In this document: positions 963 through 62,580 of the stretch, in pieces | Layout of the letters: each line of letters starts with the position of its first letter | Position numbering within the stretch: position 1 is the first letter of the stretch | The notes under the pieces: model-generated | The model's input: the letters and a program-made list of their open reading frames with translations, nothing else | The model's database searches: none | What the model was told of the DNA's origin: nothing | Program-made: the position numbers and the translations under genes | Source of the DNA: Verrucomicrobiota bacterium | GTDB lineage: Bacteria > Verrucomicrobiota > Verrucomicrobiia > Chthoniobacterales > UBA10450 | Assembly (NCBI GenBank): GCA_003218375.1 | Contig: QHNH01000021.1 | Coordinates: 1-64,000, forward strand | Direction of reading: 5' to 3' | DNA: 64,000 bases

Positions 963-3776
963 TCAGTTCAGCGCGTAAACTTCCACGACCGCGATCCCGG
1001 TCGAGCCGGCAAAGCCGCGAACGATGGCGGTGTAGCTCCCAACAGACAGCGTCCGCACAATAGCCGATTCCAATTCGTGGTTCGGCGGGATCCCGGTGTC
1101 GATGATCGCTTGCTTATTCGGGCTATCCACCCAGTTATCGTTCGCTTCCAGGAGCGCGCCATTACCATCGTGCAATTCCAGAGTGGGATCGGACATTCTT
1201 CCAGGGACGGGGACGGAGGGACCTAGCGCACGGATGATCACCTTTTGCGACGCCGCACCGGTTACGATGGTGCCCGCAAACAAAACGTTGTCTCCGGTCT
1301 GGACCAGACCCCGCGTGGAAATATTAGCCAGCTTCGAATCCACCGAGGTATCGAGATCATATACTTCTACTACTCCGATTCCCGTTCCACCATTCGCGCC
1401 CCGAACGATCGCGGTATATTGAGAGTTGTTCGCCGACAAGGTGGCGATGATGGCCGATTCCAGATTATTTGTAGGAGCTACGCCGCTATTGATGATGGCT
1501 TGCTTGTCGGCGCTATCGACCCAGTTGTCGTTCAAGGCGAGCAACGTGTTGCCTTGATAGAGCTCCAACGTTGGATTAGCCAGCTTGTCCGCCAAAGACA
1601 AGGACGGTCCGATGGCGCGCACGATGACCTTCTTGGGTTGGGTGCCTGTGACAATCAAGCCTCCGATCAGGACGTTATCGCCCGTCTCGACCCTTAGTCG
1701 GGTGGAGATGTTAGCCAGGTTATGCCCAAGACGATAGACGAAGGCTGCTCCGGCCCGAGCTGTGCCGACAGCTGTGGCGACGCGCGCGCCAATGATGGCA
1801 GTGTCGCCGCTGATCCCGACGCCGATCCCGAAATTGTCGCCGATGTTGTTATCGCCCACCACCGCCGCCCGCTCGGTCCAGAGCGTGCCAGCGCGAGTGA
1901 AGACATAAGCCTTGCCGTTGTCGTCGTTGATGTTGTTGGTTGGCTCCCAGCCATAGGCGCCTACGACAATTGTGTCGCCTTGGATCGCGATGTGTCCCGC
2001 GCCAAAGAAGTCGCCAGCGGTGAAGGCATCGCTGCCGACGAGCTTCTGCTGCTGACTGTAGGTTCCGTTGCTATTGCGCAAGAAAACATAGGCCGCGCCC
2101 GCATTGGCTCGGTTGTCGGGCGCGCCGACCACTACCGTGTTGCCACTGATGGCTACGCTTTGGCCGAATTGGTCGCCCGTTTGACCATCGCTGGGTTTTA
2201 CCGTGTCGGATCCATGAACGGATCCCGCTAAATCTAGAACAATGATCTGGATTGCTCCCGCTCCGATGCCCGGCATGCCGACAATGAAAGAGGCCAAGTT
2301 AGGATCCGTCGCGTCCTTCTCAACGGCGACGCTAGTCCCAATCTGGGCATCCGCGATATCCATGCCGTGAAATCCCAAAAACACAACGCTACCATCGGCA
2401 TTTATTTTGAACATAGTTGCCGCCCCGGCATTCTTCTCGGTCGCATAAGACGCTCCCGGCGAGCCGCCGATAATGAAGTTGCCGCTGATGGCGACACTGG
2501 CTCCGAATCGATCTCCTGGATCAACTCCGCCGATAATGCCGCTTGTGCCGATGTAATTACTTGGGCCGTTGCGCTGGTAGTAAGAGGCGCTACCCTTACC
2601 GCTATTATCACCCGGGCAGCCATACGCGATGCGGTTGCCGCTGATGGCGACGCTGTATCCGCATTGTTGCCCAACGCCGCCAATCGGGCCGAAGCGCTTC
2701 TCCAGACCCCACGACGAGTTCGGAAAGGTTCCCGTCCGAACAAAGACATACACCGCACCCACATCTGCATTAGCTCCCACATCTTCGCGCCATGCGCCGA
2801 CTACCGCCAGGTTACCGTCAATGGCCACCGCGGTGCCGAAGCGAGCGTCCGCCTGGGGAGTGTCACTCCTGAGCTTCTGCTCGAGCGCCGCGATGAGAGG
2901 ATCGATCACAATCGGATAACGCGCCCCCGCATCTTCCACGACCAGGGCGATCTCGCGTCCCTCCGCGCTTGCTTCCATTCGCGCCGCCAGCTTCTTCCCA
3001 TCCGCATCCAGCGCGACCAGCTTGTTGTAGCTCAGGATGCCTCTTCCGTTATCGTCAGCAAGCTCAATCCGGTTTCCGTCATCTATTACCCGGGCCCGAA
3101 GGTCGCCCGAGACCGCCAGTGACACGCGCAACGACTCGTTAGGCCTGGCCACGCTCCTTCGCGTCGGACGCTCGTTTAGGGTAAATCCCTGCTCGATTCC
3201 TTCGGCCCGGTTCTCATACCACTCCGTCAATTGCGGATTTCGGATTTCCTCCTTCGCCGAGGCTACGGCGGACAGGTCGGATTGCGGATTGAAAGAAGCA
3301 CGCCCATACTCGATCCGGTTTTCCTTTACCTTGCGCGAGATGATCGACGGGACGTCGGCCAGCTGTTTGCCATAGCCCCAGCGTTCTACATGCAATGCGC
3401 TTGTCCATCGCTGATCGCGTTTTTCTTCTGATAACGTCGGACGCACCGTCACGCCATCCTGGCCGAACCACACATTCAGGTTCTGCTCGTGACTCATGCC
3501 CAGGTATCCGCCGCCTGTCTTCTTGTCGCCCGGCGCCGATTCCTGCCACTCGAGACCAAACCGCGCCGCCGTGAGCGCCTGTGCCAACGATTTTCCGTCG
3601 CCGCCCTGTTCGAGATACACGCGCGCCCGTTCGCCGGAGAGCGGCACGGTCGCCGCTTGTGATTGGGGGCGCGTCGTCTTCATGGGGACTGGCGGCCGCG
3701 AAAGTAGAGCGGCGCCAAATAAACCCACAGCAGCGATGCTCAGGAGAACAACAACCAACCGCGGAAGCGTTTTCAT
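963..3776 (-). CDS. Secreted FG-GAP beta-propeller protein with two C-terminal NISTR domains
   Basis: 937 aa, exported: signal peptide MKTLPRLVVVLLSIAAVGLF. An N-terminal region (about 45-290) with motifs such as YNKLVALDADGK and PIVIDPLI precedes a seven-bladed-type propeller (about 300-680). The propeller repeats read like DRFGASVAISGNFIIGG and DQFGQSVAISGNTVVVGAP, which are FG-GAP/integrin-alpha type blades. Two consecutive domains of about 120 aa follow (about 690-816 and 817-937), both beginning NISTR and TGDNVL and ending with VRG...TGI.VVEVY. The same pair closes the protein at 5175-8753. The C-terminal pair is common in Verrucomicrobiota surface proteins; its job is unknown. A palindromic repeat appears to be inserted in frame around 3232-3292. 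A role in surface adhesion or matrix is inferred. Confidence 0.8.
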   Translation of the reverse strand: MKTLPRLVVVLLSIAAVGLFGAALLSRPPVPMKTTRPQSQAATVPLSGERARVYLEQGGDGKSLAQALTAARFGLEWQESAPGDKKTGGGYLGMSHEQNLNVWFGQDGVTVRPTLSEEKRDQRWTSALHVERWGYGKQLADVPSIISRKVKENRIEYGRASFNPQSDLSAVASAKEEIRNPQLTEWYENRAEGIEQGFTLNERPTRRSVARPNESLRVSLAVSGDLRARVIDDGNRIELADDNGRGILSYNKLVALDADGKKLAARMEASAEGREIALVVEDAGARYPIVIDPLIAALEQKLRSDTPQADARFGTAVAIDGNLAVVGAWREDVGANADVGAVYVFVRTGTFPNSSWGLEKRFGPIGGVGQQCGYSVAISGNRIAYGCPGDNSGKGSASYYQRNGPSNYIGTSGIIGGVDPGDRFGASVAISGNFIIGGSPGASYATEKNAGAATMFKINADGSVVFLGFHGMDIADAQIGTSVAVEKDATDPNLASFIVGMPGIGAGAIQIIVLDLAGSVHGSDTVKPSDGQTGDQFGQSVAISGNTVVVGAPDNRANAGAAYVFLRNSNGTYSQQQKLVGSDAFTAGDFFGAGHIAIQGDTIVVGAYGWEPTNNINDDNGKAYVFTRAGTLWTERAAVVGDNNIGDNFGIGVGISGDTAIIGARVATAVGTARAGAAFVYRLGHNLANISTRLRVETGDNVLIGGLIVTGTQPKKVIVRAIGPSLSLADKLANPTLELYQGNTLLALNDNWVDSADKQAIINSGVAPTNNLESAIIATLSANNSQYTAIVRGANGGTGIGVVEVYDLDTSVDSKLANISTRGLVQTGDNVLFAGTIVTGAASQKVIIRALGPSVPVPGRMSDPTLELHDGNGALLEANDNWVDSPNKQAIIDTGIPPNHELESAIVRTLSVGSYTAIVRGFAGSTGIAVVEVYALN

Positions 3777-45603: not shown

Positions 45604-45726
45604 ATCTAACCATGCGATGGAGCGAACGGCGGACCGCTGCGCGTTCACATTTGAGATGACTTCCAACCCTTCATTCCGAGCGACGCACGGTCTCGTCCGC
45701 CGTCGCTCATCTTATTCTCGTTAGGC
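45604..45726 (+). other. attC-like recombination site A (123 bp)
   Basis: ATCTAAC (45604) at the left, GTTAGGC (45720-45726) at the right. Internal arms GAGCGAACGGCGGAC and GTCCGCCGTCGCTC pair except for one unpaired A in the left arm, i.e. an extrahelical base as in integron attC sites. Then ATCTTATTCTC before the right core. Same length as site C. Confidence 0.7.
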
Positions 45727-46405: not shown

Positions 46406-46598
46406 GCCTAACCATGCGATGGAGCGAACGGCGGACCGCCGTACGCTCCACTTTTGAGATGACTTCCACACTTCGATTCCGAGCGACGCGCGTTGATTCG
46501 CATTGCCCAATGCTCACCCTGCGGGCTAGGGTCCATGTCGCGCCGCTTTCCGCGAGCTCCATTCTCGTCCGCCGTCGCTCATCTTATTCTCGTTAGGC
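46406..46598 (+). other. attC-like recombination site B (193 bp)
   Basis: GCCTAAC (46406) with the same left arm GAGCGAACGGCGGACCGC and right arm GTCCGCCGTCGCTC as site A, ending TTATTCTCGTTAGGC (46592-46598). Compared with sites A and C it has about 70 extra bases in the loop, including GCATTGCCCAATGC and CCTGCGGGCTAGGG. Confidence 0.65.
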
Positions 46599-46705
46599 GT
46601 TAAGGAGCCAAGAGGGTCGGTCTTTAAATCTCGGCATTCGCTGAAGATTTTTTCGAACTTCGGGCCGGCAAACGCCGTAGTATCTTAGTGAAGGGCTGAT
46701 ATTTT

Positions 46706-47020
46706 CAAGCCAAGTCCCCGCCAAACCAAGCCGAGTCCCTCCAAGACCAAGCCAAAATGCCCCCAGAACAAGCCAGGAGTTTCCCGTTTCAGGCCAAGAG
46801 TGCGCCAGGTTCACTGAGTTCCGCGCCGTTCTGGGCAAGTCGCGGGCGAGTTGACCAGGTTTTGAGGCGAGTTGGCCAAGTCGCGACGCGCTTTGGCCAG
46901 GAAATCGGCGATCCCGGCCGAGCCGGGCGATTTTTCACCGAAATTTTAACGGTTCCGGGCAGGTTTTCGATCCTCCAAGCCAGGTTTGCTGATTTCCCGG
47001 CCAGAAAAATCAATCCTCAC
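46706..47020 (+). repeat. Phased array of fifteen 21-bp degenerate units (array 1)
   Basis: Fifteen units of exactly 21 bases without a single indel, e.g. CAAGCCAAGTCCCCGCCAAAC, CAAGCCGAGTCCCTCCAAGAC, GGCCAAGTCGCGACGCGCTTT, GCCAGGTTTGCTGATTTCCCG. Only the first half of each unit is conserved (C-A/G-A-G-C-C-A/G-A-G-T like); the second half is nearly free. Both strands stay open as seven-residue repeats, but no codon-like constraint is seen. The array ends 90 bp before the GTG of the Fn3 gene. Not a tandem repeat of identical copies, and no known family fits. Confidence 0.8.
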
Positions 47021-47110
47021 CCGGCGAACACCGCGCTCCCGCCCTCTTCCGCGGCTGCCCGAACCCCCCTTTAACCCGATGCAGTTAACCCCAAAGAAAG
47101 GCAGAACAAA

Positions 47111-47722
47111 GTGAAGCTAAAAACAGGCTATTCCGACTTGACCCCAACCGAGGGGGTGGACCTGGGCAACACGGTCAAACTTAATATGACCGGCAAACCA
47201 ATTTGGAGCGGGCTCGCCTCGCTCCTTACGCAGTTGCCTCTCGACATAGCGGCAGTGACCACAGCCATGTCCGCAACCGGACCGGGCGCGGCGGCGCAGT
47301 TAGCCGCGGCCGACGACGCGCTCTCGATCACCCTCGGCAATCTCGCCGATGGCGCGAACAAGACCGCGAACGTGACCGATGCCGACCTCGCCGGCACCGG
47401 TTTCCCACAGGTAAAACAACGCGTCCAGCTGACCGAGCCGCCGCCGGCCCCGCAGAACCTGCGGTTGCGCCACGGGCAAATGCCCGGAAGCGTCGACGGC
47501 GCCGTCGATCCGATCCCGGGGGGCAACATCCGCAGTTACGAAGGCCAATGGGCGCTGGATGCCAACAGCGGTCCCTGGAGCGACACCCTCACGTTCCCTA
47601 ACTCGCGTGCGTTGAGGTTCACCGATCTCGCCCGCGGGAAAGACACCTGGTTCCGGATCCGCGCCCGGAACACGATCGGCGCCGGCCCGTGGAGCGATCC
47701 GGCCACGATCATGGTGACGTAA
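47111..47722 (+). CDS. Fibronectin type III-like hypothetical protein
   Basis: 203 aa starting at GTG 47111. N-terminal part (1-100) is helical and Ala/Thr-rich with LTQLPLDIAAVTTAMSATG and AQLAAADDALSITLGNLADGANKTANV. C-terminal part (about 112-203) is an Fn3 domain: PPPAPQNLRLRHGQMPGSVDGAVDP, then RSYEGQWALDANSGPWSDTLTF and ARGKDTWFRIRARNTIGAGPWSDPATI (the G-x-G-P-W-S-x-P ending is typical). No signal peptide. A 21-bp repeat array precedes it and a GC-rich hairpin follows. Proteins of this plan occur in several Bacteroidota and Verrucomicrobiota without known function. Confidence 0.7.
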   Translation: MKLKTGYSDLTPTEGVDLGNTVKLNMTGKPIWSGLASLLTQLPLDIAAVTTAMSATGPGAAAQLAAADDALSITLGNLADGANKTANVTDADLAGTGFPQVKQRVQLTEPPPAPQNLRLRHGQMPGSVDGAVDPIPGGNIRSYEGQWALDANSGPWSDTLTFPNSRALRFTDLARGKDTWFRIRARNTIGAGPWSDPATIMVT

Positions 47723-48780: not shown

Positions 48781-48903
48781 GCCGAACAATGCGATGGAGC
48801 GAACGGCGGACGGCTGTGCGTCCACATTCGAGATGACTTCCACACTGCCACTCCGAGTCAAGCGCGGTCTCGTCCGCCGTCGCTCATCTTATCCTCGTTA
48901 GGC
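48781..48903 (+). other. attC-like recombination site C (123 bp)
   Basis: GCCGAACAATGCGATGG at the left; arm GAGCGAACGGCGGAC with the same extra A, matched by GTCCGCCGTCGCTC; right end TTATCCTCGTTAGGC (48897-48903). Exactly as long as site A; apart from the cores the two differ at a modest number of positions. Confidence 0.7.
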
Positions 48904-56633: not shown

Positions 56634-57344
56634 CTAGGGATGCCCGGCTGGCGGAGGCGGCGGCGGAGGAGGAGTTGCTGTTGTCGGTGGGCGTGTCGCC
56701 GCGCGATCGATAATTACCCGCGCCGAGATATAGCCTGCGTAGAATTCCGGATTCGCTCGGCGGAACGGCGTCATCAGTTTGTCGAGCTGATTGCGGAAGA
56801 GGCTGCGCGTCGTTCCAATCAGGCTGGCCACCGTCGTCGTTAAACCGCTCCGCGTCGCTTTCGCGGTGCGCGGCCCGGTTTTCATCCCGGAAAAAGCGGT
56901 GATCGCCGCCCTGAGCGCCGTAATATCGCCGGCCGTTATGCCGTAGGGAGCGAGCGCGGCGACGTTCGTGTTCGCGGCATCGCGCACGCGTTCCGATATC
57001 TGTACGAGATCGTCATCCTGCGCCTGATCGAGACCTGAACGGGTAAGCTGGACCCGATGCGCCAGCGCGAGGTTCGACGTTTTCTCTGCCAGCGCCGCCA
57101 CCGGATCGGCGATTTCCAGCGTCAAATCTTCCAGATCGTCCCGGGCTTGCGCCTTTTCATCGGTGATGCCGCTGGTTGGCGACTCCTGGCCGGCGACCGC
57201 GCCGCGGATCGTGGCGACGCCATTCTTGGCATCGGTCACGGCAGCGGCGAACGCGGGCATGGCGCTCCAGAGCGCATTGTTGGTATCAAGAAACGCAATC
57301 GTCGTCTCGAACATGGAAGTAACGTTTTCCTGTTCTTGTGTCAT
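56634..57344 (-). CDS. Hypothetical helical protein with proline-rich C-terminus
   Basis: 236 aa, no signal peptide. N-terminal helical half: MFETTIAFLDTNNALWSAMP, AAVTDAKNGVATIRGAVAG, RDDLEDLTLEIADPVAALAEK. C-terminal half: DITALRAAITAFSGMKTGPRTAKATRS then SLFRNQLDKLMTPFRRANPEFYAGYISARV, with parts LFRNQLDKLMTPF and NPEFYAGYISAR. A PPTTATPPPPPPPPAGHP tail ends it. Not recognised; helical length and regularity suggest a structural or binding protein. The 21-bp array 2 lies 197 bp upstream of its ATG. The frameshifted small gene follows 12 bp after its stop. Confidence 0.65.
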   Translation of the reverse strand: MTQEQENVTSMFETTIAFLDTNNALWSAMPAFAAAVTDAKNGVATIRGAVAGQESPTSGITDEKAQARDDLEDLTLEIADPVAALAEKTSNLALAHRVQLTRSGLDQAQDDDLVQISERVRDAANTNVAALAPYGITAGDITALRAAITAFSGMKTGPRTAKATRSGLTTTVASLIGTTRSLFRNQLDKLMTPFRRANPEFYAGYISARVIIDRAATRPPTTATPPPPPPPPAGHP

Positions 57345-57540
57345 ATGGGTTATCGGTTGGGGTTCAAAAAGGGGACAAAAAGGGGGAGAGGGGTTCTACC
57401 TGTTACTACGGTTTTTTTGGGACGAAGTCCGAAACAAAATGCGTTTTGCCGCGAGTATGCTTCGCCATGCTGGTGCAGCAGCGCGTGTCACCACCCGCGG
57501 GAGGCGCTTCAATCTTTCAGCTCGGCCGAACCACGAAGCT

Positions 57541-57813
57541 CGGTTCCCATTTGGCGCTGAGATGCCGCCCGTCTGAGCCCAGCCGGCGTTTGACCGCGCT
57601 GAGTGTGAGTCTTGCCTAGCCGAGCCGCGATCTAGCCGAGCCGAGCGACGATCCAGCGACCTCAAGCGTTCGTTTAACTGAACCGAGCGGCAATCTAATG
57701 GTGCCGAGACTCCATCCAGCGCCGCCATGACGGATCCAAACCGCTCGGAGCCGGTTCTTAATCGAACCGAGTCTGGATTTAAGGGCGCCTAGACAGAGGA
57801 CGGCCGGACTCAA
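57541..57813 (+). repeat. Phased array of thirteen 21-bp degenerate units (array 2)
   Basis: Thirteen units of exactly 21 bases, e.g. CCGGCGTTTGACCGCGCTGAG, CCGCGATCTAGCCGAGCCGAG, CGTTCGTTTAACTGAACCGAG, CGGCAATCTAATGGTGCCGAG. The last six bases (CCGAG or near) are conserved in most units; the middle is A/T-rich ATCTA/TTTAA in many. On the minus strand this reads as a seven-residue repeat (LGALKSR, LGSIKNR). It lies between divergent genes: ATG of the 236-aa protein at 57344 and the multi-PAS kinase at 57894. Confidence 0.8.
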
Positions 57814-57893
57814 ACCAAGCCGTGGAGCAACCCATTTCCCGCATCCTATACGCGTTCTTGTTCAGTCATGGGCAGAAGGTATATGATCGACTC

Positions 57894-59549
57894 ATGGTGA
57901 CGCCAGTGGAGCCAGAGACGGAAGATTTTCTTCGCCTCGTGATCGATAGGATTCCCACGATGGTCTGGAGTCTTACGCCTGGGGGAGTCCTCGATTTCGT
58001 TAATCAGCCCTGGATAGACTACACGGGCATTTCTTTCGGGGAAGCAATGCGGGAACCAAACAGCATTGTTCATCCCGACGACCTTTCGAGGGTCGTGGAG
58101 AAGTGGCTTAAGGACATGCGCGCCGGGGAATCGTCCGAGGATGAGATGCGTTTGCGCCGCGCGGACGGAGAATATCGCTGGTTCCTGGTCCGGACGGTGC
58201 CGCTCTTCGACGAGCAGAGGCAGGTCGTCAAGTGGTACGGAACGAGTACCGATATCGAGGACCGCATGCGCACGGAAAAGGGGTGGCAGGTGCTGATCGA
58301 TGCGATCCCGCAGCAGATCTGGAGCGGCCCGCCTGACGGCACCCTTGACTATTGCAACGCGCGTTGGCGCTCCTATATGGGAATAGGACTGAAAGACCTG
58401 CAAGGCGAGGGCTGGCAGACGATGCTTCATCCCAACGATCGAGGTCGGGTGCTTAAGGCCTGGCACGAGTCGGTGGTAAATGGAACGTCTTACGGACAAG
58501 AAGAACGCCACCGGGGCGCCGACGGGACGTACCGCTGGTTCCTCGCCCGTGGCGTCCCGCGGCGCGACGCGGAAGGCCGCATCGTAAGGTGGTACGGGAC
58601 GAACACCGATATCGAAGATCGCAAGCAGGCCGAGAAGGCCTTGAACGCGCACGCTCGTCGTTACAAGACGCTGATGGAGACTTCCACGGATTCGATTTAC
58701 GTCCTGGACAAAAACGGTGACCTGCAAGAAGCGAACGCGGCCTTTCTTCGCCGGCGCGGTTACACGGCGGCGGAGGTGAAAGGTTCAAGCGTCGCGGATT
58801 GGGACGCGCAATGGAGCCGCGAGGAACTGCAGGAACGATTGCGAATGCTGGTTGGTAGCAGCGCAATGTTCGAAACGCGGCACCGTTGCAAAGACGGGTC
58901 CGTCTTCGATGTCGAAGTTTGCGCGACGAGCGTCCGGATCGGCGGAGAACAATTGTTCTTTTGTGTGACGCGCGACATTACCGAGCGCAAGCAGGCGGAG
59001 CAGGCTTTGCGGGAAAGCGAGCAACGTTTTCGCGAGCTGGCGGAGAACATTAATGAAGTTTTCTGGCTGAGCGATGATCAAAATACCCGGATGCACTATA
59101 TCAGCCCCACCTACGAAAAAGTTTGGGGACGCAGCTGCGAGAGCCTGTATGCCGCGCCACGATCGTGGATGGATGCAGTTCACCCGGAGGACAAGAAACA
59201 GGTTCTCGCGACCGTAGCGAAGCGGTCGCTCAACGAAGCGTATCAAAACACGTATCGCATCGTGCGGCCAGATGGATCGATTCGCTGGATCCGCGATCGG
59301 GGTTTTCCGGTGCGGGACGAGAGCGGAGAAGCAGTGCGATTTGCCGGCATTGCCGAAGACATTACCGAGAGTAAAACAAGCGCAGAGGCGCTGGAACGGG
59401 CGGAGAAACAATACCATTCGATCTTCCACGACGCCGGGGACGGAATCTTTCGAACCTCGCCGGATGGGAAGTTTCTGGTCGCAAACCCGGCCGCGGCCCG
59501 CATTTTCGGGTTCGCTTCTCCGGACGGCGAGAGGAATTCAAACGCCTGA
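57894..59549 (+). CDS. Multi-PAS sensor kinase, N-terminal part (disrupted)
   Basis: 551 aa from the ATG at 57894 (MVTPVEPETEDFLRL); GTG 57822 is another choice. Four PAS domains with PAC ends: about 15-130 (FVNQPWIDYTGISFGEA), 140-258, 270-390 (ITERKQAEQALRESEQRF) and 400-525, then the start of a fifth (YHSIFHDAGDGIFRTSPDGKFL, ANPAAARIFGF). It stops early at SPDGERNSNA. The next frame continues as REEFKRLIQDQG, the downstream part of the same PAS domain. The two halves therefore look like one kinase broken by a small deletion plus frameshift around 59520-59535. As it stands this product is a kinase-less PAS array. Confidence 0.8.
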   Translation: MVTPVEPETEDFLRLVIDRIPTMVWSLTPGGVLDFVNQPWIDYTGISFGEAMREPNSIVHPDDLSRVVEKWLKDMRAGESSEDEMRLRRADGEYRWFLVRTVPLFDEQRQVVKWYGTSTDIEDRMRTEKGWQVLIDAIPQQIWSGPPDGTLDYCNARWRSYMGIGLKDLQGEGWQTMLHPNDRGRVLKAWHESVVNGTSYGQEERHRGADGTYRWFLARGVPRRDAEGRIVRWYGTNTDIEDRKQAEKALNAHARRYKTLMETSTDSIYVLDKNGDLQEANAAFLRRRGYTAAEVKGSSVADWDAQWSREELQERLRMLVGSSAMFETRHRCKDGSVFDVEVCATSVRIGGEQLFFCVTRDITERKQAEQALRESEQRFRELAENINEVFWLSDDQNTRMHYISPTYEKVWGRSCESLYAAPRSWMDAVHPEDKKQVLATVAKRSLNEAYQNTYRIVRPDGSIRWIRDRGFPVRDESGEAVRFAGIAEDITESKTSAEALERAEKQYHSIFHDAGDGIFRTSPDGKFLVANPAAARIFGFASPDGERNSNA

Positions 59550-59566: not shown

Positions 59567-61945
59567 GTGAATGGCTTCGAATATGAAGCTTACCGCAAAG
59601 ATGGGAGCCGGGTCTGGATTTCGGAAAACACTCGCGCGGTCCACTCGCCGAACGGCGAGATCCTCTATTTCGAAGGAATTTTTGAAGACATTACCGACCG
59701 CAAGCGGGCCGAGGAGGCGCTGCGGGAGAGCGAGGAGCGCTTCCGCACGATCTTCGAACAGGCGCCGCTGGGCATCTCCGAAGGTGAGATCGCCACCGCC
59801 CGCTTTATCAACGCGAATCAGCGCTACATCGACATTCTTGGCTATACCATTGACGAACTGCGGAAGTTGACCTTCCGGGATTACACCCATCCCGATGACC
59901 TGCAAAAGGATCTGGTTGAGTTTCAAAAACTCGCTGCCGGTGAGATTCGGACCTACGCGATGGAGAAGCGCTACATCCGCAAGGACGGCGCGATCATCTG
60001 GGTAAACCTGACGGTTACAGGCTTGGCGTACCCGGGGGAAAAGCCCCTCAACTGCATCGCGGTCATAGAGGACATCACGGACCGGATCCAGGCGGAGGAG
60101 AGGCTGCGGCGGAGCGAGGAAAAATTCAAAGCCCTTTTCGATCTCGCGCCAGTCGGGATCGCGTTTTTGGATTCGCGACTGAACATAGTGGACTGCAATC
60201 CGGCGCTGGAACGAATGAGCCGCCTTTCGAGGGAGGAATTGCTGGGCGCAGCCTGGCAGCGGCGTACCTTCCTGAATGCAGACGGAAGCCCGCGGCTGCG
60301 CGGCGAAAGGGTGAGCGAGCGGGCCGTGAGTGAAAAGCGGCTCGTCAACGGTGTGGAAACCGGCGCCCTCATGGAAAGCGGCGATGTTGTCTGGGCTGAG
60401 GTCAGCGTCGCCCCGCTCGCAGTGCCGGATGCGAGGGCCGTGGTGATCATGCAGGATATCACGGAGCGCAAACAGACGGAGCAGGCTCAGGAACGCGGGC
60501 TTTCATTAATGCTGGCCACGCTGGAATCGACCGCCGACGGCATTCTCGTGGTGAACACAGAGGGGAAAATCGTGACGTTCAACCGCCTCTTTGCCCAGAT
60601 GTGGCGCCTCTCGGAGGAAGTGCTCGCGTCCAAGGAGGACGCCCGTGCCCTGGAATGCGTGCTCGACCAACTCATGGAACCGGAAAAATTCCTGGAGAAG
60701 GTTCACTACCTCTATCGGCATCCCGAGGAAAAGAGTTTCGACCGGCTCGTCTTCAAGGACGGCCGTGTTTTCGAGCGCTATTCGCGGCCGCAGCTAATCG
60801 GCGGCAAAGTAGCCGGAAGGGTATGGAGTTTTCGGGACGTCACAGAGCGCAAGCGGGCGCAGGCGGCACTGCGAGAAAGCGAGGAACGTTTTCGGTTGTT
60901 GGCCGAGGTGACGAACGATGCCATCTGGGACTGGGACTTAACCACAAACGACCTGTGGTGGAACGAAGGTTTCGAAACGCTTTTCGGCTATAGCCGCGCC
61001 GAGATCGAGAAAACGATCGACTCCTGGTACAATCGCGTTCATCCGGCCGAACGGAATCGGGTCATTTCTGGAATTCACCGGACCATTGATGAAGGGGGAA
61101 CGATGTGGTCGGACGAATATCGGTTTCTTTGCAAGGATGGCAGTTATGCCTACGTCCTGGACCGTGGGCACGTTATCCGGGATGCCGAAGGCAAGGCGGT
61201 GCGGATGGTGGGTGGAATGAGGGATCTCACCGAGCGAAACAAGGCAGAAGAGGCGGCCCAAGCGTTCCCGACGGAATTGTTAAGAGCCCAGGACGAGGAG
61301 CGGCGGCGGATTGCCCGGGAGATACATGATTCAACAGCGCAGGAGCTCGCGGTTGTGGCCATGAATCTCGGTCGACTCGAGGAATGGATAGAAGGTCGTG
61401 ACCCCTGGGCCGAGAATCTCCTGGCCGATAGTCTCGCGATCTTGACGCAGGGCAATCGCGATCTGCGCACCCTCGCCCATCTTCTCCATCCACCGATGCT
61501 AGAGGAGCTTGGTTTGATCGGAGCGATCCGGGATTACGTCGAAGGTTTTTCCGCCCGCAGTGGCATCGAGGTCGAACTGGAATTCAGCGAAGATTTCGAA
61601 CGATGCCCGAGCGAAACCGAGACGGCGCTTTTTCGCGTCGTGCAAGAGAGCCTTTCCAACGTGCATCGCCATTCTGAAAGCAAATTCGCCTTGGTGAAAC
61701 TCACACGCATCGACGACATCATCGAACTAACCATTGCCGATCGCGGTCGCGGCCTGCCCGCCGGCCTCCTCACCGGTACGGCCGAGGACGCGCGGATCGG
61801 CGTCGGTATTTCTGGGATGCGGCAGCGCATAGTTCAATTGCAAGGCCGGCTTGACATAACCTCGAACAAAGAGGGGACAACCGTGCGTGCCGTTCTGCCT
61901 TGTAGTCAGAAAGGTGTTCGCGCCCAGAATGAATCGGAAAAATGA
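59567..61945 (+). CDS. Multi-PAS histidine kinase (NarL type), C-terminal part
   Basis: 792 aa from GTG 59567, more likely the continuation of the upstream PAS gene than a gene with its own start. It begins in mid-PAS (NGFEYEAYRKDGSRVWISEN), then has PAS domains at about 55-165, 185-300, 305-420 and 440-560, each with a PAC end such as VIEDITDRIQAEERLRRSEE. HisKA_3 follows (about 575-645) with the phospho-His in RRRIAREIHDSTAQELAV, then HATPase (about 690-775) with ADRGRGLP and GVGISGMRQRIVQLQG. No membrane helix is seen. The LuxR-type regulator overlaps the stop by four bases (ATGA), so they form a two-component pair. Confidence 0.88.
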   Translation: MNGFEYEAYRKDGSRVWISENTRAVHSPNGEILYFEGIFEDITDRKRAEEALRESEERFRTIFEQAPLGISEGEIATARFINANQRYIDILGYTIDELRKLTFRDYTHPDDLQKDLVEFQKLAAGEIRTYAMEKRYIRKDGAIIWVNLTVTGLAYPGEKPLNCIAVIEDITDRIQAEERLRRSEEKFKALFDLAPVGIAFLDSRLNIVDCNPALERMSRLSREELLGAAWQRRTFLNADGSPRLRGERVSERAVSEKRLVNGVETGALMESGDVVWAEVSVAPLAVPDARAVVIMQDITERKQTEQAQERGLSLMLATLESTADGILVVNTEGKIVTFNRLFAQMWRLSEEVLASKEDARALECVLDQLMEPEKFLEKVHYLYRHPEEKSFDRLVFKDGRVFERYSRPQLIGGKVAGRVWSFRDVTERKRAQAALRESEERFRLLAEVTNDAIWDWDLTTNDLWWNEGFETLFGYSRAEIEKTIDSWYNRVHPAERNRVISGIHRTIDEGGTMWSDEYRFLCKDGSYAYVLDRGHVIRDAEGKAVRMVGGMRDLTERNKAEEAAQAFPTELLRAQDEERRRIAREIHDSTAQELAVVAMNLGRLEEWIEGRDPWAENLLADSLAILTQGNRDLRTLAHLLHPPMLEELGLIGAIRDYVEGFSARSGIEVELEFSEDFERCPSETETALFRVVQESLSNVHRHSESKFALVKLTRIDDIIELTIADRGRGLPAGLLTGTAEDARIGVGISGMRQRIVQLQGRLDITSNKEGTTVRAVLPCSQKGVRAQNESEK

Positions 61946-62580
61946 AAAAGCTTCGAATCCTGATCGCGGACGACCATCCCCTGGTCCGGCAGGGTTTGCG
62001 CTCCGTCCTTGAAGCGCAGCCAGGATGGACGGTTTGCGCGGAGGCAGAGGACGGCCGCAGCGCGGTCAAGCTGGGTCTGGAACTGAAGCCGGACGTTTTT
62101 CTAATCGATGTCACGATGCCGGTCTTGAATGGACTCGACGCGACGCGGCAGATTCGCCGGGAACGTCCGAATGTCGCGATTCTAATCCTCACCATGCACG
62201 AATCGGATCAGCTTTCCGAGGACTTGATTCGAGCCGGAGCGCGCGGATGTATCTTGAAAAGCGATAGTCCCCGACAATTGCTCGCCGCGGTTGAAGCCGT
62301 CGCAAGCGGGAACCAATATTTTACCCGTCTTGCTCCTCATCGCGCCCAGGCTGAAGAGACAGCGACCGCTTCGCGCACGCCCGCACGACTAAGTGCGCGG
62401 GAACGCGAAATCGTGCAGCTTCTGGCGGAAGGGCGAACTAACAAGGACATCGCGACCTTGCTTAGTATCTCCTATAAGACCGTGGACGCGCATCGCGCCA
62501 ACATCATGAAGCGCCTGGCCATCCATTCGGTGGCGGAACTGGTTCGTTACGCGGTTCGCGAACGGATCATTCAAGCGTAA
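61942..62580 (+). CDS. LuxR/NarL-type response regulator
   Basis: 212 aa. Receiver: ILIADDHPLVRQGLRSVLEA, phospho-Asp in DVFLIDVTMPVLNGLDA, LTMHESDQLSED and GARGCILKSDS. C-terminal HTH: LSAREREIVQLLAEGRTNKDIATLLSISYKTVDAHRANIMKRLAI (key parts LSAREREIVQLLAEG, SYKTVDAHRANIMKRL). It is translated in overlap with the kinase gene, so the kinase is the obvious partner. A direct repeat CTAGGGTWAWTCC just after its stop may be an operator. Confidence 0.92.
   Translation: MKKLRILIADDHPLVRQGLRSVLEAQPGWTVCAEAEDGRSAVKLGLELKPDVFLIDVTMPVLNGLDATRQIRRERPNVAILILTMHESDQLSEDLIRAGARGCILKSDSPRQLLAAVEAVASGNQYFTRLAPHRAQAEETATASRTPARLSAREREIVQLLAEGRTNKDIATLLSISYKTVDAHRANIMKRLAIHSVAELVRYAVRERIIQA

Follow-up and report, generated by a model that had tools for sequence, protein, structure and literature searches.

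Among described systems, the binding sites of BvgA, a Bordetella regulator of the NarL/FixJ class, come closest to the DNA arrays reported here. BvgA dimers sit on a single DNA face with their centres 22 bp apart, at sites without strong sequence features; the longest promoter studied carries six dimers, the last of which abuts the −35, and one regulator serves many promoters (PMC7250471). The window analysed in this study, a stretch of 64,000 nucleotides from a Verrucomicrobiota bacterium (GenBank GCA_003218375.1, contig QHNH01000021.1), contains tandem arrays that can be compared with these sites. Consecutive two-turn sites are common to both, and in our set periods of 21, 22 and 41–44 bp only were found, in 32 of 39 gene leaders. 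BvgA sites are weak and degenerate and belong to a regulator with a GerE-type HTH; the arrays are degenerate as well, with GerE genes beside several of them only. Unlike the sites occupied by BvgA-P, they have 10–20 units and a sequence private to each locus, and they are candidate operators. Both the geometry and the sequence freedom of the BvgA sites fit the arrays.

Plasmid iterons are direct repeats of about 20–22 bp that stand in helical phase and have a replicon-specific sequence. In contrast, the arrays described here are chromosomal, occur several times per genome, precede small helical or Fn3 genes and consist of far more degenerate units. No Rep family was among the Pfam and NCBIfam matches of the neighbouring genes tested. 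A palindromic core in some array units is reminiscent of REP/BIME elements, but REP sequences occur as many copies scattered over a genome, whereas a genome-wide comparison matched the focal array to its own locus alone. Minisatellites (VNTR) are likewise tandem, with units of about 21 bp and higher-order units; the arrays, however, keep a fixed period across unrelated sequences and consistently lie ahead of particular gene families. The array comparison drew on one genome per species.

The focal array (46703–47020, plus strand) was delimited by autocorrelation, shuffling and segmentation. It comprises 14 units, or 15 if the weak last one is counted, with the loose consensus ..tc.agccaagt.....cc., and together with an array at 57501–57850 it represents the strongest non-coding periodicity in the window. 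At a lag of 21 bp, 135 of 294 positions in 46706–47020 are identical, compared to a mean of 74.7 in dinucleotide shuffles (sd 7.6, maximum 101). None of 2000 shuffles matched this value, and at any lag from 5 to 79 every shuffle likewise remained below it. The degenerate period-21 array that the initial annotation had placed in the leader of the Fn3 gene is thus borne out, also against shuffled sequences of the same composition, which had been named there as a check. The phasing, described there as perfect and free of indels, is less exact. Segmentation resulted in ten steps of 21 bp and three of 20 bp (mean 20.77 bp), and the GCCAAGT-like core slips by −1 three times, near 46813, 46854 and 46937, which raises the autocorrelation at lags 41, 62 and 83. 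The mean step of 20.8 bp is close to twice 10.4–10.5 bp. The further claim that only one half of each unit is conserved is weak for the focal copy, since each column has between 3 and 9 mismatches in 14 and the columns are not significantly uneven (χ2 20.7, p 0.41). Taken alone, the focal array is not distinguishable from neutral, uniform decay. Tandem Repeats Finder reports just its first 2.4 units. A spacer (47021–47110, plus strand) of about 90 bp, in accordance with the initial annotation, separates the array from the GTG at 47111. It contains GATGCAGTTAACCCCAAAGAAAGG, and a similar stretch, CGCAGTTCCAACCC, precedes the start in the 231-aa protein family.

The gene behind the focal array (47111–47722, plus strand) encodes a protein of 203 aa that we confidently predict, on the basis of Pfam, AlphaFold2 and PDB comparisons, to consist of a three-helix bundle (residues 12–94) and a C-terminal Fn3 domain. 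The AlphaFold2 model has a pLDDT of 95.9, and the predicted fold has counterparts among Fn3 domains in the PDB (E 3e-7); the Pfam fn3 match (E 0.0005) has a score under the Pfam cut-off. A PHROGs tail-protein match lies mainly over the Fn3 part, and searches for a phage, plasmid or defence origin gave no informative match. With a pI of 5.8 (N-domain 4.2) the protein belongs to a mostly acidic family with few basic exceptions. It was rejected as a binder of its own array DNA because most family members are acidic. Many relatives carry [WY]D..GL.[WY]D repeats in an N-terminal in-frame extension or leader peptide (L094 at 2954–3050, L095, L116, L119 and L127); this extension was not seen in the window gene.

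Three integron attC-like sites were observed in the window at 45607–45726, 46409–46598 and 48784–48903 (TAACCATGCGATGgAGCGaACGGCGGAC ... GTCCGCCGTCGCTCATC..GTTAGGC, with extrahelical bases), compared to none expected by chance. One attC-like cassette interval encloses the array together with the Fn3 gene and an ORF for a 230-aa membrane protein, and 3′ arms resembling the window sites occur at C2:88514 and C32:1292. A dispersed GTCAGTCTGTGAATCTCGGCA element is found in the window at 46601–46682, at L183 (5723 and 5794), L060 (9234), L159 (1194) and L182 (6291), sometimes near arrays. Its 80-bp window copy, which is common to C51, was rejected as part of the array because repeats of this type also occur away from arrays.

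To describe the leaders of related genes, 39 intact Fn3 relatives were picked by protein similarity alone, from Verrucomicrobiota only; many of the related genomes are drafts. The 1.1 kb on either side of each gene was scanned, and an array was called at a z above 6. The same period upstream of homologues, as the initial annotation had proposed to look for, was strongly evident: arrays lie upstream in 32 of the 39 relatives and downstream in none of 38. The best period of the 32 upstream arrays is 21 bp in 17 cases, 42 bp in ten and 44 bp in two, with 22, 41 and 43 bp making up the remainder. The arrays contain 10–20 units (median 14) and in many loci end 0–200 nt ahead of the start codon. Two Fn3 paralogues of the same genome (L005 and L006) have period-21 leaders whose sequences differ from the focal one, and inside one gene family unrelated unit types of the GGCTAGCCG, ATCCGATGAAGG, ACCGCTAGCGG and GTGCTAGCAC kind occur. 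Preservation of the arrays varies between near perfect and heavily decayed, and some have higher-order units of 42 bp. A scan of named genomes returned one relative, from a Spartobacteria MAG. In genome G286, two recently duplicated Fn3 genes (L096 and L097) both have downstream repeats with a 10-bp period; no array was detected upstream of L097, and L096 is too near the contig end to judge.

The second array of the window (57501–57850, minus strand, at least 11 units) lies upstream of a minus-strand gene (56634–57344) for an all-helical protein of 236 aa, for which no structural analogue was found in the PDB. This array sits between the 236-aa gene and a plus-strand set of PAS sensor and NarL-type regulator. 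The PAS-rich sensor gene appears as two ORFs (57822–59549 and 59567–61945), possibly owing to a frameshift or as two genes; they start beside the array and are followed by a GerE (LuxR/NarL) response regulator gene (61942–62580, plus strand). With fragments included, arrays were found at 18 of 30 loci of the 236-aa family and at about 12 of 30 loci of the 231-aa family (L050).

In 1.5 Mb of the window's own genome ten such arrays were detected, eight of them before these small-protein families. Four are of the Fn3 type, before genes or remnants (at 46.7 kb, twice in C42 and in C47), and one each precedes a member of the 236-aa family, the 231-aa family, a frameshifted 255-aa gene and a fourth helical family (L183). 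L172 and L177 are arrays without a small-protein family gene behind them. Other strong periods in this genome (12, 18, 24 and 30 bp) were mostly read as coding linkers. An unbiased sample of 397 kb from G286 yielded three arrays, two of which precede Fn3-family genes. A near-perfect 21-bp array in G286 (L261, 8201–8800, C3) reads IPIGRRA in one frame and is located near a superoxide dismutase gene, away from the array families.

At L213 and L214 a stand-alone LuxR/NarL-type HTH gene lies directly upstream of the array. A profile built from four such genes revealed further array neighbours, and their GerE domains were confirmed by Pfam. In L213, L214, L050 and L220 the GerE gene lies upstream of the array on the same strand; in L059, L064, L095 and L222 it is oriented divergently, with the array in between, and in L020 it follows the Fn3 gene. 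The window's genome contains eight GerE domains in total. Four of the corresponding genes are located within about 1.5 kb of an array or family locus; those in C8, C17 and C42, which encode proteins of 124, 79 and 247 aa, directly adjoin arrays, and the one in C19 adjoins a decayed Fn3 copy at which no array was detected. A fifth is the NarL-type gene at 61942–62580, the last of the set that faces the second array. According to our own calculation, the chance of at least four of eight GerE genes lying near 14 array or family loci (1.5 kb on each side, about 1% of the genome) is near 1e-6, the real probability being less extreme because the hypothesis came from inspecting the data. The focal array and most others have no GerE gene beside them, most loci being covered with flanks of 1.5 kb. 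XRE-type genes occur between the array and the Fn3 gene in L139 and L098 and upstream in L227. As a general regulator the XRE gene was rejected, since it was seen in these three loci only.

Paralogues illustrate the turnover of the arrays. The genes of L118 and L141, which share one genome, are 81.6% identical in DNA over 635 bp, and their arrays are unrelated. Three loci of the 231-aa family (L213, L214 and L236) show identities of 54–73% before the array, 45–48% within it and 52–67% in the 60 bp immediately preceding the start. Between L214 and L236 the flank-to-flank distance is almost equal though the intervening sequence cannot be aligned. Segmentation of the arrays gave 20 off-period steps in 504, compared to 2964 mismatches to the consensus, a low indel count that is biased because the segmentation penalises spacing changes.

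A satellite with fast turnover, in which tandem duplication biased towards two turns is followed by functionless decay and the genes merely sit at permissive places, would account for the range from near-perfect to heavily decayed arrays, for 42-bp higher-order units, for the unrelated sequences of paralogues, for a focal array that fits uniform decay and for the G286 array away from these families. The distribution of 32 of 39 upstream versus 0 of 38 downstream, the restriction to periods of 21–22 bp, the nearly equal flank distance in L214 and L236 despite unalignable sequence and the occurrence before at least three gene families point in another direction, and we regard the satellite as rather unlikely. 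Kept period, free sequence and few indels would also agree with a sequence-independent architectural element, the two-turn repeats of which sum to a planar bend for wrapping by a nucleoid protein or for looping. Such an element does not predict GerE neighbours, however, and A-tracts are equally enriched in the flanks, for which reason phased A-tract bending was rejected; this explanation appears improbable to us. Far weaker is the case for coding heptads, that is repeats of 7 aa per 21 bp in a lost or small leader protein. The period is divisible by three in most loci, and one open sense frame exists in 28–29 of 39 arrays, but column permutation already leads one to expect 22.8 of 39, and ten of the 39 have no open sense frame at all. 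Periods of 22, 43 and 44 bp occur in several loci and the focal array has three 20-bp steps; with steps of 20, 22, 43 and 44 bp among the arrays, the indels are not in threes. Coding heptads are refuted for loci with period 22 or 44 and for loci without an open frame, and for the arrays in general we give them hardly any credence. The doubt about a coding repeat voiced in the initial annotation was justified in that steps of 20, 22 and 44 bp and closed frames exclude coding for many arrays.

The position of many arrays, 0–200 nt before the start codon, would suit a transcribed leader RNA, a repetitive 5′ UTR to which a protein could bind or which could modulate how the downstream gene is translated. 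In L213, L214 and L236 the conserved block upstream of the array is promoter-like, with TTTACA-17-CATRMT-like hexamers in two of the three loci. These hexamers hint at transcription through the array, which would then lie inside the transcript, unlike BvgA sites. Consensus sigma-70 promoters were not consistently found on either side of the arrays (mean z 0.21 upstream and −0.01 downstream). Folding beats that of column-permuted arrays in the Fn3 and 231-aa families, but this excess is absent in the 236-aa family and in the focal array. The arrays, with a mean z of −1.8 against column-permuted copies (−1.69 when set beside their flanks), deviate similarly to the upstream (−1.17) and downstream flanks (−0.70). 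Hairpins as a common array feature were rejected, as flanking DNA folds nearly as well. Sense and antisense of the arrays fold about equally, and a purine content of 0.488 and a GC skew of −0.04 (SE 0.03) indicate no strand asymmetry, as is expected for a double-stranded element. No Rfam match was obtained at the array in any of the eight loci scanned. Altogether we consider a leader RNA quite unlikely.

The explanation we prefer is that the arrays form a phylum-wide cis-acting class of helically phased operators, bound by dimeric and partly GerE-type regulators; we hold it to be plausible, if not quite probable. Out of the two possibilities named in the initial annotation, a protein-binding array is the best reading because spacing of 21–22 (or 41–44) bp is kept in all 32 detected arrays while the sequence changes completely, and the leader RNA is less supported. 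According to this proposal, 10–20 tandem sites of two helical turns each would lie in the leaders of small accessory genes. A dimeric regulator, at part of the loci the LuxR/NarL-type (GerE) product of an adjacent gene, would occupy successive units along the same DNA face, with cooperative binding and weak sequence specificity. The resulting row of regulators may control the gene behind the array or a divergent pair. The sequence of the array would change fast and be private to its locus. Period and length would be retained, since the geometry of the row of bound proteins depends on them. Palindromic cores of 8–14 bp would suit a dimer. The mean palindrome z over 39 arrays is 1.2, with strong values in L127, L130, L138, L222 and L226, and such a core is absent in the focal array and in the 236-aa family. 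As judged from these sequences, the cores appear to be real in part of the arrays and not general.

More tentatively, the arrays may represent an undescribed phylum-wide cis class in which period and total length are conserved, the sequence is free and each array co-diverges with its own, often LuxR/NarL-type, regulator before several unrelated small-protein families; we consider this possible, though doubtful. No description of such arrays was found in the literature searched. If true, this would be a prokaryotic parallel to satellites selected for period and not for sequence. Standard motif searches and phylogenetic footprinting would miss a regulatory element that can be found by period and not by sequence conservation. 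Tens of natural arrays, several of them beside small stand-alone GerE proteins, would allow the co-evolution of weak phased sites and their regulators to be tested. For Verrucomicrobiota, the arrays would provide a first handle on their abundant, functionally unassigned small helical and Fn3 proteins.
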